From a candidate division FCPU426 bacterium (GTDB taxonomy: Bacteria > Oederibacteriota > Muellerivitia > Muellerivitales > Muellerivitaceae), in NCBI GenBank assembly GCA_003152075.1, contig PLZG01000024.1, positions 1-64,000 on the forward strand: 64,000 bases of DNA. The letters are read 5' to 3'. Of the stretch, positions 15,593 to 35,192 are shown one piece after another (position 1 is the stretch's first letter; each line of letters opens with the position of its first letter). The translations under genes were made by a program, and so were the position numbers. Under the pieces are notes generated by a model. It saw only the letters and a list, made by a program, of their open reading frames with translations, was not told the origin of the DNA and searched no databases.

Positions 15593-15956
15593 GAGACTCC
15601 TTACCTGCCCGTTGACCCCGGATCCCCCCTGAATGGTCTTAGAATCCTATTGGCATATACCAGGTGGCCTTGCGGCTAGGGTAGGCCTTTGGTTTTTGGT
15701 ACTTACCACTTTCAAATCTTCTCTGGGTTAACCTTACCGGTTTGGGGGCTGTCTGGCTGATGGAAGATCTTGGGCCGGGGATTTTGGGAAGGTTAGCCTG
15801 CCTGCCGAAGCCTTGGCGTAGGCACTCTAACGTATATTCTATAGGGCGGATGGTGAGTAAGACCGTGGTGAGCCCAGTCGAACCACGAAGCGGATCGAAT
15901 CACATTCCCCTGAGCGACCAGCGGGAGTCGAATGGGCTGGTCCTGTTGTTCCCGCG
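15593..15956. other. non-coding stretch with fragments of dispersed repeats
   Basis: There is no credible gene. I can see CTGCCGAAGCCTTGGCGTAGGC (a palindrome, about 15803-15824) and a GTGGTGAGCCCAGTCGAACCAC palindrome (about 15866-15887). Both resemble commonplace dispersed inverted repeats. The stretch ends abruptly where homology to the GH43 gene resumes at 15957. Confidence 0.55.
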
Positions 15957-16184
15957 GAGACGGCCGTGAAGAACAAGGGGGAAAAGGTCTTCGATGTCCT
16001 GATCAACGGTAAAAAGGCCCTCGCTGGTTTTGATATCCTTCAAGAGGCTGGTGGCCCCGATAAGGCCATCGAAAAGACTTTCCAGGATGTCGCCCCCGAC
16101 GCCCAGGGGCAGATCACCCTTCGGTTCATCTCGTCCGTCTAGAACGCCAAAGTCTGCGCCATTGAAATCACCCGCCAACGTTAA
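15957..16184 (+). pseudogene. relic of a second malectin-domain enzyme (3' end only)
   Basis: This segment is colinear with the last ~75 codons of the GH43 gene (ETAVKNKGE... to AIEITRQ). It lacks everything upstream and carries an in-frame TAG where the parent has CAG in SSVQDAK. Of about 24 changed codons roughly 15 are synonymous. That pattern fits divergence as a functional paralogue before its front was lost. It ends CGT TAA, one codon longer than the intact gene. It is not expected to be expressed. Confidence 0.85.
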
Positions 16185-16391
16185 CTTGAATCGTATTTGG
16201 CAAGACGGATGCATAATCGATTTTACTGCTGGTTAACGCTTATCCCCTGGTTCTTTGCTGAGCCGCAAACTTTTTGGCGCAGGACTTACCAGGAAAATTA
16301 ATACGGTAGAATAACATTAGTAATGTTTGAACTATATTCGCTTTATTCCGTCTATAAGACGGTGAAAACATAATATGACTAATGGGTTTTT

Positions 16392-28412: not shown

Positions 28413-28497
28413 GAAAACTATTCTGGGTTGGTCTTAGGATCGGCCTAGCCCTGGATGGTTTATCGGTAGGTTTAGTAGGCACATTTTGAGGTTAAGT

Positions 28498-28574
28498 CGG
28501 GGCGTGGCGCAACCCGGTAGCGCAGTTGCATGGGGTGCAAAAGGTTGCAGGTTCAAATCCTGCCGCCCCGACCA
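28498..28574 (+). tRNA. tRNA-Pro (anticodon GGG)
   Basis: Acceptor CGGGGCG (28498-28504) pairs with CGCCCCG (28564-28570), then A and an encoded CCA. The anticodon loop ATGGGGT sits between TTGC and GCAA, giving anticodon GGG; the T-loop is GTTCAAATC. 77 bases. It shares the transcript of the CGG tRNA, 85 bases upstream. Confidence 0.95.
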
Positions 28575-28730
28575 TTTTTTAATGTGTCCCTTTTCGCTTT
28601 GTGAGTTATGGATTTTACCGTTTTTTCCCTCCAAATTTTCCGCTACCACAACTTTTTGAAAAGTCAAAAATAAGCTAATTTTTTTCAAAAAACTGACAAT
28701 TATCATCAACCTGATGTGGGGTGGTTTCAA

Positions 28731-29006
28731 ATGTTTAACGCTTTCACGGCTTCCATTAGAGGCAGAGTACAAGGGGTAGGGTTTCGTTATTTCGTGGAAA
28801 GGCTTGCTGGGGAGCTAAATTTAACGGGTTGGGTACGTAATCAACCTGATGGAAGCGTGGAATTGTTGGCTAAAGGTGAGGTTTCGGCTTTGGAACGGTT
28901 ATTGCAAAGATTAGAAGAGGGACCGATAGGAAGCCGGGTCGATAAAATCGATTCGCAATGGCTCCAGGAACCCCAGAATTTTAAAGGCTTCGAAATCAGA
29001 GGGTAA
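28731..29006 (+). CDS. acyP: acylphosphatase
   Basis: Acylphosphatase hydrolyses carboxyl-phosphate bonds in the cytosol. The 91-residue protein matches the family length and shows both catalytic residues: R19 in GRVQGVGFRYFV and N37 in GWVRNQPDGSVE. The C-terminal FKGFEIRG strand is also typical. ATG 28731 follows a G-rich site (GGGGTGG); ATG 28716 would add five non-conserved residues. The sigma factor gene starts ten bases after its stop, so the two are probably co-transcribed. Confidence 0.94.
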   Translation: MFNAFTASIRGRVQGVGFRYFVERLAGELNLTGWVRNQPDGSVELLAKGEVSALERLLQRLEEGPIGSRVDKIDSQWLQEPQNFKGFEIRG

Positions 29007-30842: not shown

Positions 30843-31538
30843 ATGACCGTCAATTGGGGCAAAAAACTGGGTATTGTCGAAAAAACCACGGCTGAAAAGT
30901 GGATGGATTGGGCCAAAGCGCATCAGGAATTGGTGGCAGTTTCCGTTATTGTCCTTCTTCTTCTGGGCGTTGGAGTCCCCTATTACATCAACAGCCAGGC
31001 CAAAAGTGAAAACGATGCCAAGGGCGTCCTTAACCTGGGCCAATATTACCTTCACTCGCAAGTCGATCCAAAGAACGGGCCCTTCAAAACCGAAGGTGAA
31101 AAATACCAGCAAGCCATCCAGACTTTCCAACGCATCACCACCGACTACGCCGGAACCAAAACCTCCAAATTAGCCCGCTATTACGTCGCGAAAAGCCAGT
31201 TTGAGTTGGGGCAATATTCCCAAGCCTATACCAGTTTTGACGCGGCTTCCCAGGAACTAAAAGACAGTCCACTGGGAGAAGAAGCTTATTTGGGGAAAAT
31301 ATTCTGTTTGGTGGCGCAAAGCCAATTTTCTCCCGCGACCACCTTGGCTGAGACATTCCTTAAGGATAATCCGGACAGCTTTATCGCCCCAGAGGTCCAT
31401 TTGTCGCTATCGGATATCTACCTCAGGACCCAAAACAAGGAAAAGGCCATTGAACAGTTAAAACTCACTGAAAAAAGCTACCCGGATTCATCATGGAGTA
31501 AGGAAGCCTCCCTCCGGTTGGAAAAACTCAGTTCTTAA
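30843..31538 (+). CDS. YfgM-like membrane-anchored TPR protein
   Basis: This 231-residue protein has one N-terminal membrane helix (about 31-49, VAVSVIVLLLLGVGVPYYI) after a cytoplasmic segment, then four or five TPR units facing the periplasm. This is the architecture of YfgM and related ancillary factors of the Sec translocon and outer-membrane assembly. GGGG (30834-30837) precedes ATG 30843. Its stop overlaps the stop of the aminotransferase on the other strand by 11 bases (31528-31538), and this convergence is where gene polarity changes across the window. Family assignment is by architecture rather than strong motif. Confidence 0.75.
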   Translation: MTVNWGKKLGIVEKTTAEKWMDWAKAHQELVAVSVIVLLLLGVGVPYYINSQAKSENDAKGVLNLGQYYLHSQVDPKNGPFKTEGEKYQQAIQTFQRITTDYAGTKTSKLARYYVAKSQFELGQYSQAYTSFDAASQELKDSPLGEEAYLGKIFCLVAQSQFSPATTLAETFLKDNPDSFIAPEVHLSLSDIYLRTQNKEKAIEQLKLTEKSYPDSSWSKEASLRLEKLSS

Positions 31539-32694
31539 GTTCATTTAAAAAATCATGTATCCGCCGAACCCCTTCAATAAAGTCCGCTGATTTCGCCAAT
31601 AAGCTCAAGACTAAAAAACAGCTGCTTTGAAAATCGTAAAAGCCCCCCGGCTGAACAAAAACCCCTTGTTTTTCCAAGAGTTGAATGACCAACTCATCAT
31701 CCCGGACGCCTTTCTTTTGGACCTCGACCAAAGCGTACCAGCCCCCCTGGGCTGGCCATACCTTAACTTCCGCCAAGGCTTTGAAAGACTCTTCCAATAC
31801 CGACCGATTCCTTAAAACCCTCTCCAAAACTTGCTTTTGGAAGTTTGGGGCGAATCGCAACAATTCCTCCAGCGCCAGTTGGACGGGTGTATTGACCGAT
31901 AAATAAGTATCGGCGATCAGTTCCAGCCTTTCCAGGCAGTCCGACAGGAGGTTCTTGGGTCCATCAATAGCGATCCAGGAGAGTTTTAACTGGGGAAGTC
32001 CTAGGCTTTTCGAAAGACCCCCCAGTCGAAAGGACAGGACTTCCGAAGTCGGGTTCATGGCCAAACCATGACCCGGATAGGGAAAATCCGAGAAGACTTC
32101 ATCGGAGATATAGGCCAACTGTCGGTTCAAACAAAGGTTTAAAAGGGCGGTTTGCTCATTTGGGCTTAAAAAACAACCGGTAGGATTTTGGGGATTCACG
32201 ACAATGAGGCCTTTCGTGTTTGCCCGTGGAAGCTTTTTTGCTTCATTTAAATCGACAGGCCAGTTTGGCTCAGCACGAAGGGAGTAGGGAAGTGGCTCCA
32301 GGCTATCCAACTGTAAAAGATGATCCAAAAGGGGATAACCGGGCGCCGGAACAAGGAATGAGTCCTCGGGATTTCCTAATAGCTTGAAAATGTAGGAGTA
32401 AGCCTCACTCGTACTTGCCGTTAAAAGAAGGTTTGAAGGACCTACCCGATGGCCTTTATCCCGTAAATAACCCGAAACAGCTTCCCGAGCCATCATGTTC
32501 CCAAAAGGGTCGGGCTCATAACTCATAACTTGGGGACTATTGAGCCCTTGAAAAAGGTCTTTTGGATATTCAAAGCCGCATTGGGTTGGGTTGGAAACCG
32601 TCAGATCGAGAAAGGAACCGGATTTTAGCCGACCCAGGACTTCAGTTATTGGGTTAGGGGACAAATCATCCGGTGTACGACTAGAAAAGCCCAT
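31528..32694 (-). CDS. class I/II PLP-dependent aminotransferase
   Basis: This is a 388-residue fold-type I aminotransferase. The PLP contacts are in place: NPQNPTG (167-173), D198 in ISDEVFSDF, and the Schiff-base K229 in GGLSKSLGLPQLKLSW. An Arg for substrate carboxylate binding is expected near the C-terminus, but I cannot assign it confidently. The opening VSNPTQCGF is like that of LL-diaminopimelate or aspartate/alanine-type enzymes. The substrate is undetermined. GGGGGTG lies just before ATG. It runs tail-to-tail with the YfgM-like gene. Confidence 0.88.
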   Translation of the reverse strand: MGFSSRTPDDLSPNPITEVLGRLKSGSFLDLTVSNPTQCGFEYPKDLFQGLNSPQVMSYEPDPFGNMMAREAVSGYLRDKGHRVGPSNLLLTASTSEAYSYIFKLLGNPEDSFLVPAPGYPLLDHLLQLDSLEPLPYSLRAEPNWPVDLNEAKKLPRANTKGLIVVNPQNPTGCFLSPNEQTALLNLCLNRQLAYISDEVFSDFPYPGHGLAMNPTSEVLSFRLGGLSKSLGLPQLKLSWIAIDGPKNLLSDCLERLELIADTYLSVNTPVQLALEELLRFAPNFQKQVLERVLRNRSVLEESFKALAEVKVWPAQGGWYALVEVQKKGVRDDELVIQLLEKQGVFVQPGGFYDFQSSCFLVLSLLAKSADFIEGVRRIHDFLNELKN

Positions 32695-33153
32695 ACATCA
32701 CCCCCTAAAGTAAAACTTTAAGCTCTTTCGAAACCTTTTAAAAGCCTCATGCTTTCAAGCAAAAAAATTGGGCTTCAATCGTCGACACAACCCCCACCCT
32801 ATCCGCCATTGGAAAATCCTTGAAATCAAAGGCTTTATCCCTTGAGCCAAAAAGGGAACTCAATTCCAAGACGTATGGTTCGGAAATCGTTGGTATTATT
32901 GGTGTCCCCGAAGGGTTGTTTTGACCCCCAACCGAACTTGTTTTAAGCGTTCAAGGCCCTAGTACAAAGATTACTTGTACTTAATAATCGTTCAAATAAA
33001 CATCATTCAAATGCAAATTCAAGCCATTTTGGCATCTTGGAAATTAACATGGCCATAATTGTCTTCTAAAAGGCATTCGAAGCGACAAAAAAATATTGAT
33101 AAAAAGAGACTTAGGCATCATTCGGAAAGAGTTTTTGGGCACGATTTACGCTT
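32695..33153. other. 459-base intergenic stretch without a gene
   Basis: No supported coding frame or RNA. It is AT-rich and holds one clear palindrome (32961-32981, listed separately) and several GTTCAA/ATTCAA words. It separates the aminotransferase from the tyrosine recombinase. Confidence 0.6.
32961..32981. promoter_or_regulatory. 21-base palindrome, possible operator
   Basis: AGTACAA (32961-32967) and TTGTACT (32975-32981) are perfect inverted arms around seven bases. It lies in the long gap downstream of the recombinase gene. No regulator can be named. Confidence 0.4.
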
Positions 33154-34230
33154 TTATTTGTCGTTCGCCTCACCGTCCATGGCTTTGCGGATGCGGGCCC
33201 GGTAACGCTTCAAAACCTCCCGAGGTCCCAATGAACCCGCCAGGCTCAAGGCCAAGACCTTATAACCATCGCCAAAAGCCTTTCCGTGAGCCTGACGGCT
33301 TTTCGTGGAAGCCAACTTGACGTAATTTTCACTGACCATGATGCTGGAATGGCCCATGAGATCCCTGATTTCGTACACGCTGGCTCCAGATTCGGCCAAT
33401 TTGGTGCCAAAGGTGTGCCTTAAAACGTGAACCGTGAGTTCATCTGGGCTTTCCAAGCCGGCCCACAGGGCGGCCTTCTTCACCCAAAGTTCCAGAAAGT
33501 GGGGATGGCTGGGTTTGTGGGGGCTCCTGGGGCTCGGAAATAGATAGGGTGATTCCGCTAAATCCTTATTCTTAAGCCCTTCGGCGTTGAAGCGCATCAG
33601 AAGATCACGAAGCATATCGGTCATAGGAACCGTCCGTTCCTTGTCGCCTTTTCCGATGACGGTTAGAAGCTTTTGGTCCAGGTCGATCTCCTTAAGCCTT
33701 AATTGGGCTATCTCGGAAACTCTTAAGCCGCAGTGGTAACCCAGCAAGACCACCAGGCTGGCTTTTAAGTCCTCCAAATCGGCCGTGCGCAGCCCCTTCA
33801 GGATAGCCTCCCGGGATTTGGGTGGCAAAGGCCGGGGATTGCGTTGGGGACTACGGATGGCCAGGTTGTGAAAGACTGCTGTGGGATCATTGGTGATATG
33901 TTGGATGGAGGCCAGGTAGCGGTAAAAGGAACGGGTCGAGGCTAAGATACGCTTCATGGACCGGGTGGAATAGGCTAGACGCGCCTTGCCGGCAGGCGTT
34001 TGTCCGGGCTTGGTCAACTGGCCAACAAAGCGGGCCAAGTCTTGGGGCTGAACCAAGCTTGGCTTTGAAATACCAGAAACGTCCAGGAACTGTTTAAAGA
34101 CCCTCAGGTCATGGTGGTAGTTAGAACGGGTATGGATTGACTTGCATAAGCCCAAAAAACCGGCATAGGGCTCGATGAGCTGCAGATCGTCTGAGCGATT
34201 GAAGGAATGGTTCAGGTTTGGGTCGGTCAT
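33154..34230 (-). CDS. Xer-type tyrosine recombinase
   Basis: This 358-residue site-specific recombinase has all catalytic residues: R170 (CGLRVSE), K194 (IGKGDKER), H268 and R271 (HVLRHTFG), H294 (MGHSS) and nucleophile Y303 (SENYVK). An N-terminal SAM-like core-binding domain (about 15-110) is followed by the catalytic domain, then an unusual ~55-residue basic tail (KSRQAHGKAFG...). XerC/XerD proteins are ~300 aa, so the tail is extra. A dif-like 28-base inverted repeat lies 14 bases upstream, overlapping its promoter. No excisionase, phage or transposon genes are near. I infer a chromosome-dimer recombinase working alone (like XerH/XerS); a solitary integrase is the alternative. Confidence 0.88.
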   Translation of the reverse strand: MTDPNLNHSFNRSDDLQLIEPYAGFLGLCKSIHTRSNYHHDLRVFKQFLDVSGISKPSLVQPQDLARFVGQLTKPGQTPAGKARLAYSTRSMKRILASTRSFYRYLASIQHITNDPTAVFHNLAIRSPQRNPRPLPPKSREAILKGLRTADLEDLKASLVVLLGYHCGLRVSEIAQLRLKEIDLDQKLLTVIGKGDKERTVPMTDMLRDLLMRFNAEGLKNKDLAESPYLFPSPRSPHKPSHPHFLELWVKKAALWAGLESPDELTVHVLRHTFGTKLAESGASVYEIRDLMGHSSIMVSENYVKLASTKSRQAHGKAFGDGYKVLALSLAGSLGPREVLKRYRARIRKAMDGEANDK

Positions 34231-34244
34231 AACCCCTCAATATA

Positions 34245-34272
34245 ATCTTCTATAATTGTAGTTATAGAAGTT
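34245..34272. other. dif-like recombination site (11-6-11)
   Basis: The left arm ATCTTCTATAA (34245-34255), six-base centre TTGTAG (34256-34261) and right arm TTATAGAAGTT (34262-34272) show 10 of 11 arm positions symmetric. The 11-6-11 geometry and the inner ATAA/TTAT ends are those of known dif sites. It sits 14 bases from the recombinase start codon. It could instead be only an operator for that gene. Confidence 0.6.
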
Positions 34273-34289
34273 ATGTTTGGTTTTGTCAA
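34261..34289 (-). promoter_or_regulatory. strong promoter of the recombinase gene, overlapping the dif-like site
   Basis: On the minus strand TTGACA (34289-34284), exactly 17 bases, then TATAAC (34266-34261). The -10 box lies in the dif-like repeat, so recombinase binding would block transcription; autoregulation is inferred. GAGGGG (34238-34233) is the ribosome site. Confidence 0.75.
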
Positions 34290-34421
34290 CTAAAGTGACC
34301 AATTTAAACCGATGACAAACTATTTCTGGGGACTCAATTTTGCACAAAAAGAATGTTTTTCTAGATGATTTTAAACCAAACGAGCCTTTTTTCCTTCTGC
34401 CAAAAGCGGCTTTTTCGGATC

Positions 34422-35192
34422 CTAACGGGATAAGAATTCCACCATGTGTTTTTGAAATTCACCCGGAATTTCCAGTGGAATCAAATGACCGGCGGTTTGA
34501 AATAATTTTAATCGCGCGTTTGGGAGGACTTTTGCCATGGCTTCAGCTTCCGAGGCTGGTATCAAAGTATCCTCGAGGCCTGCCATGACCAAAGCTCGGT
34601 TTTTGACTTGAGCCAAAAGATCCGTTTGATCACGGCGGTTGGCCATTGCCCTTTGGGCCAATGCCACAGCTACAGGCGGCGTCTCACGGATCCATTGGCT
34701 GACAGCCTCAACTACTTCGGGTTTCGTTTCTCGGGTTGTTTCGCCCAGTAAACCCGGCACCATTGAATCAATCAGAAAGCCTGTCCCTTCTTTTTCAACT
34801 TTGTCCGCTATCTCCAGCCTTTTCTGACGGTTTTCCGGCTTGTCCACTCCAGGTCGGGTTGAAATCAAAATCAAGTCCTGAACACTTCCTGGAAATTGCC
34901 GGACAAACTCCATGGCCCAATAGCCACCCATGGAAATACCACCCAAGAGGACTGGCTCTTTAAGCCGTGATTCTTCAAGGTGATTGCGAAGCCCCGTAGC
35001 GGCTTCCTCAAGCGTCAAGCCATGTGGGGTAAGAGGTGAGAGGCCAAACCCTGGAAAATCAGGCAGAACTAATCGGAAACCCTCTGGGGCTTGAATGTAA
35101 TCCCAAATCCGATGGGAAAGTGGAAAGGCGTGAAGTAGAACAAGAGGTCGACCACTTCCTTTTGATTGAGATCTAATAACAGGAATCGACAT
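34422..35192 (-). CDS. alpha/beta hydrolase
   Basis: This is a 256-residue alpha/beta-fold hydrolase. Visible catalytic elements are the nucleophile elbow GISMGG (Ser at about 97), an acid in GLEDTLIP (about 212-219) and the His in AGHLIPLE (about 239-246). The oxyanion HAFPLSHRIWD (about 20-30) and DFPGFGLS motifs are typical of esterases, BioH-like carboxylesterases and dehalogenase-like enzymes. The substrate cannot be told. It stands alone, between the recombinase promoter and a hydroxyacid dehydrogenase on the same strand. Confidence 0.9.
   Translation of the reverse strand: MSIPVIRSQSKGSGRPLVLLHAFPLSHRIWDYIQAPEGFRLVLPDFPGFGLSPLTPHGLTLEEAATGLRNHLEESRLKEPVLLGGISMGGYWAMEFVRQFPGSVQDLILISTRPGVDKPENRQKRLEIADKVEKEGTGFLIDSMVPGLLGETTRETKPEVVEAVSQWIRETPPVAVALAQRAMANRRDQTDLLAQVKNRALVMAGLEDTLIPASEAEAMAKVLPNARLKLFQTAGHLIPLEIPGEFQKHMVEFLSR

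Follow-up and report, generated by a model that had tools for sequence, protein, structure and literature searches.

Xer systems that work with a single recombinase have been reported in streptococci and lactococci, in a group of epsilonproteobacteria, in Legionellales and in archaea (PMC5357621, PMC9765430). Judged from its sequence, the locus described here, from the candidate phylum FCPU426, is a further variant of this known general kind of single-Xer/dif module, with a conserved Xer recombinase and an adjacent site in genomes that carry no canonical XerC/XerD pair. XerS/difSL resembles it in having one recombinase of about 356 aa and a gene-adjacent site at the terminus (PMC5357621, PMC2731167). 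However, difSL has unequal arms and an 11-bp centre (PMC5357621), whereas the core of the site found here has near-equal arms around about 6 bp, and the XerS model gives the recombinase 76 bits against a cut-off of 267. XerH/difH of Helicobacter and Campylobacter likewise consists of one recombinase (354-362 aa) that is encoded near its site in most species, and the difH core AACTATAATT resembles AACTACAATT of the dif-like site here (PMC2731167), but the outer arms differ, and comparison with the crystallised XerH (5jjv, the last of 12 PDB matches) gives the recombinase 30 bits, against 93 bits with XerD. XerL/dif of Legionellales, compared by description, is also an order-wide single-recombinase system that has diverged from other Xer proteins (PMC9765430). 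Canonical XerC/XerD with dif shares the inner core ATAA-N6-TTAT and the tyrosine recombinase fold; it differs from the module here, which has one recombinase and nearly symmetric, co-varying arms.

The window, i.e. the whole stretch of DNA that was analysed, comprises 64,000 bp (positions 1-64000 of contig C90, 106,325 bp) of an FCPU426 MAG (G000; 4.10 Mb, 114 contigs, 99.97% complete). The sample of the order consists of nine genomes: G000, seven others of the same family, f1 (G001-G007), and one of another family (G008). A further 13 genomes from sister families were used for comparison of Xer proteins, and two relatives with long contigs, G005 (C3, 340 kb) and G008 (C22, 273 kb), were used for terminus signals. 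The features of the locus, in window coordinates, are as follows.

30843..31538, plus strand: YfgM/TPR-like gene, last of the left (plus) block
31528..31538, no strand: polarity switch, tail-to-tail overlap (11 bp) of two stop regions
31528..32694, minus strand: class I/II aminotransferase, conserved 3' neighbour of the recombinase
32986..33024, plus strand: far copy of a 40-bp asymmetric motif, pointing at dif (E 7.8e-11 in the window)
33154..34230, minus strand: single Xer-type tyrosine recombinase, 358 aa, with catalytic R170, K194, H268, R271, H294 and Y303 present
34242..34274, no strand: dif-like site, ATAACTTCTATAACTACAATTATAGAAGATTAT on the gene strand, a palindrome just upstream of the recombinase
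34261..34266, minus strand: predicted -10 box of the recombinase gene, TATAAC, inside the dif core
34284..34289, minus strand: predicted -35 box, TTGACA, 17 bp from the -10 box
34333..34370, minus strand: near, diverged copy of the 40-bp motif, pointing at dif (E 4.3e-8 in the window)
34422..35192, minus strand: alpha/beta hydrolase, conserved 5' neighbour of the xer-dif module

The single recombinase, its site and its predicted promoter

The recombinase carries the PF00589 and PF02899 domains, and orthologues with 59-75% identity are found in all nine genomes of the order, the copy in G003 being split over contigs. The eight intact copies placed in the tree form a monophyletic clade (support 100/99) on a long branch, the attachment of which is unsure. 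Scores are below the cut-offs of all four NCBIfam models: XerS (75.9 bits, cut-off 267), XerC (153 bits, cut-off 335), XerD (146 bits, cut-off 330, or 329.6 unrounded) and the archaeal XerA (124 bits, cut-off 220). By these scores and the comparison with 5jjv, the recombinase is unmatched by the one-enzyme families XerS, XerH and XerA. Canonical XerD above the cut-off was found in none of the nine genomes of the order, whereas all 13 sister-family genomes tested encode it, together with a second Xer.

The dif-like repeat that the sequence-only reading placed beside the switch and the recombinase is confirmed as the palindrome at 34,242-34,274. Its consensus, TATAAYTNNARTTATA, lies directly upstream of the recombinase in 9/9 genomes, with a single, chance-like extra match elsewhere, in G008. 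Essentially single-copy, AT-rich, intergenic and situated at the proposed terminus, the palindrome has the features of a dif site. The outer arms co-vary (45 of 54 own-arm pairs, against 29 with arms shuffled, p=0.0007), as is expected when one protein binds both. The core (34251-34266) is reversed relative to the recombinase gene in G000 compared with the other eight genomes. Near-canonical dif sites occur in some sister genomes, as matches with one mismatch in G009, G014, G019, G023 and G043; a search allowing three mismatches is noisy in these AT-rich genomes, and the one-mismatch matches alone are trusted.

The first half-site of the core can be read as a -10 box, being TATAAT across the nine genomes and TATAAC in G000. 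At 16-18 bp upstream of it is a TTGACA-like hexamer (41/54 matches, against 23 in shuffles, a count that 0 of 20,000 shuffles reached), and G000 has a perfect TTGACA at 17 bp. Since this predicted promoter overlaps dif, autorepression of the recombinase gene by bound Xer is likely. Control of recombination by FtsK is also predicted, from two sequence features: FtsK with a gamma domain is encoded in 8/9 genomes, the exception being G007, which is 84% complete, and KOPS-like motifs are polarised around the site (see below).

Could the recombinase and palindrome instead belong to a mobile element, integrated or domesticated, as its integrase and its attachment site, with the switch in polarity being incidental? 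The inverted 40-bp motifs bracket the module in the manner of terminal repeats, and within it G005 and G006 carry an HNH-like ORF, of which G002 has a remnant. However, the module has the same position and the same neighbours in two families and follows vertical descent, the site is all but single-copy in each genome, the G008 module sits at the same position in the absence of the inverted motifs, and both skew and polarity flip at the locus. We therefore regard a mobile-element origin as very unlikely.

G000 also carries a tandem pair of Xer-like recombinases (C97, 110354-112292), near an RHS-repeat gene; no clear mobile-element genes were found among its neighbours. That this pair, or another like it, resolves dimers while the single Xer is accessory is an even less likely explanation. 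Against the XerD model the two members of the pair do reach 261 and 258 bits, compared with 146 for the single Xer, but none of the three attains the curated cut-off of 329.6. Tandem pairs of this sort were seen in 3/9 genomes only (G000, G002 and G005), whereas the single Xer is present in 9/9, and in G001, G007 and G008 nothing else matches at E<=1e-10.

Gene orientation, skew and KOPS-like motifs around the site

The head-on switch at about 31.53 kb proposed in the sequence-only reading is real, with the stops of the YfgM-like (plus) and aminotransferase (minus) genes overlapping by 11 bp. All convincing genes and all three tRNAs from 1 to 31.5 kb are on the plus strand, as had been described; the only two minus-strand ORFs in this block are short and doubtful, one (28434-28772) overlapping a tRNA and the other (15900-16214) lying amid overlapping short ORFs. 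Between 31.5 and 61.9 kb the called genes are indeed all on the minus strand, but the one exception that had been named, rpsT on the plus strand, looks wrong, as none was found there. Beyond this block genes are on the plus strand at 61.97-65.27 kb and then on the minus strand to the end of the contig at 106 kb.

The best convergent split within +/-31 kb falls at the switch, with 20/20 and 23/24 genes, and comparison splits on four other contigs of G000 reach at most 9/13 plus 24/26. An earlier caution that long same-strand runs also occur by chance holds, given a one-strand run of 67 genes on contig C97 and a run-length shuffle of C90 alone that returns p=0.09, but a chance meeting of such runs, unrelated to replication, is the least likely of the alternatives because the switch coincides with flips in GC skew and KOPS-like motifs on the 273-kb and 340-kb contigs of relatives. 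The window by itself is suggestive of a terminus, and it is the relatives that make the case convincing.

At the orthologous loci, plus-strand genes make up 74/106 to the left of dif and minus-strand genes 150/179 to the right in G005, and 123/143 and 57/57, respectively, in G008. In five genomes the orientation switch as placed by ML falls 2.3-2.7 kb away from dif. Both long-contig relatives show three reversals close to the dif-like site, in gene orientation, in cumulative GC skew and in KOPS-like motifs, each with the sense expected of a terminus, which supports the earlier suggestion that converging genes beside dif mark one. Cumulative GC skew peaks 19-22 kb to the left of dif, at 100,019 in G005 (dif at 121,520) and at 187,047 in G008 (dif at 205,656), so that a maximum lies within 22 kb of the site in these two genomes; in G000 the signal is weak.

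Skew was also corrected by using four-fold sites and intergenic DNA, fitting the gene-strand effect separately and obtaining p by permutation. The corrected shift is at -21.5 kb from dif in G005 and -5.7 kb in G008 (both p<0.001), and at -5.3 kb in G000, where it is weak (p=0.056); a clear shift at the locus was not seen in G002. The sequence-only reading had taken an unchanged sign of GC skew to argue against a terminus, and raw skew in the window is indeed unchanged, but this does not persist once the gene-strand effect is removed, albeit with the weak support just given for G000.

The KOPS word GGGNAGGG, the only polarised word chosen beforehand, is oriented toward dif in a ratio of 100:36 over all occurrences and of 31:10 within lagging genes and intergenic DNA, counts to be read with the caveat that G-rich words partly track GC skew. 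Two other polarised oligomers, GCGGGGAA and GGGGAAG, were dropped as independent evidence, having been selected on the same data.

Since gene polarity switches 2.7 kb away from dif, and the fitted shift in skew falls 5 to 21 kb to the left of the site, the forks would meet in a zone rather than at a point; in published work too, dif sits close to the point of skew shift without coinciding with it exactly (PMC3025954). The earlier reading expected a terminus to lie roughly opposite oriC; in every genome examined dnaA and the locus are on separate contigs, a comparison made at contig level since the assemblies are fragmented (114 contigs for G000). Near dnaA in G008 skew passes from negative to positive, opposite to the change at dif.

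Synteny extends over about 100 kb around dif in both families of the order, so the five orientation switches amount to a single arrangement passed on by descent, not to separate events. Given this order-wide synteny, the relatives are only partly independent as evidence. Terminus regions are often rearranged, and the conservation of gene order seen here (the window, and C90 to 106 kb, in two families) is unusual for a terminus. Taking these signals together, the locus of converging genes is very probably where copying of the chromosome ends.

The inverted motif pair flanking the module

Two inverted copies of an asymmetric 40-bp motif, AATCGTTTAAAAAAACNGCCTTTAAATGCAAAATCGGCCC, bracket the xer-dif module, both facing inward. 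Divergence of the near copy hid the pair from a simple search for inverted repeats. The pair is present in 8/8 genomes of family f1 (in G003 the copies are on two contigs), and its copies are the strongest motif matches in each of these genomes, save for one extra in G001. This extra copy (C92, position 7151) is next to leuS, in right-flank orientation; as leuS is 21-23 kb to the right of dif in the window, the extra copy is probably in the terminus region too. In G008 the module is in place and the motif pair is absent.

The closest likeness is to the two-site Tus/Ter trap of Edwardsiella tarda, in which inverted asymmetric sites also flank dif, although these are 56 kb apart (PMC8707476), compared with approximately 1.3-1.7 kb for the motif pair, which moreover comes without a Tus or RTP homologue (searches for both found none) and without a sharp flip in skew. 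In G005, genes 3-18 kb to the left of dif have lagging-type skew, as if forks often pass there, and the gradual transition in skew on this side argues against a tight fork trap. Two other identities for the motifs were rejected: transposon terminal repeats, since the G008 module holds its position with no such motifs around it, and a transcription terminator, since the two copies are oppositely oriented relative to the genes that precede them. The pair is a tentative candidate for a new protein-bound boundary element of the terminus, unrelated to Tus/Ter and RTP/Ter, an identification we put forward as possible although doubtful. Such an element may act as a polar fork barrier, as a stop for SMC or FtsK, or as an accessory Xer site.

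The HNH-like ORF (122-124 aa) lies between the near motif and dif in G005 (C3, 121561-121926) and G006 (C150, 5949-6320), and the remnant in G002 is 19 residues long; the ORF was named by eye and has no Pfam match. The 460-bp spacer between aminotransferase and recombinase (32695-33153) contains further short blocks that look conserved between relatives, e.g. CTTTGTACTT. An Rfam search of 31.0-35.3 kb returned no match.

Proposed mechanism and its meaning

We consider with high confidence that the locus is the replication terminus region of FCPU426 and that it carries the dif site of a single-recombinase system for chromosome dimer resolution. Two replichores, with genes mostly co-directional with their own fork, would meet here, which would produce the head-on switch at 31.53 kb. 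The palindrome at 34.25 kb would be the dif site of the predicted system, and a single Xer, encoded beside it, would bind both near-identical arms and, when the cell divides, recombine the two copies of dif that a dimeric chromosome carries. These sites would be brought together by FtsK, for which the strand-polarised KOPS-like motifs are the probable guide, and bound Xer would repress its own promoter by virtue of the -10 box within the dif arm.

The locus adds a further single-Xer case, in an uncultured phylum. With an order that lacks the canonical XerC/XerD pair and sister families that have it, the transition from a two-recombinase to a one-recombinase system becomes accessible to study, and the overlap of dif and promoter predicts self-limiting expression of the recombinase. 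The inverted motif pair, not previously reported, is the part that deserves laboratory work; it offers a concrete and nearly unique starting point for finding out which other elements bacteria put at the terminus.
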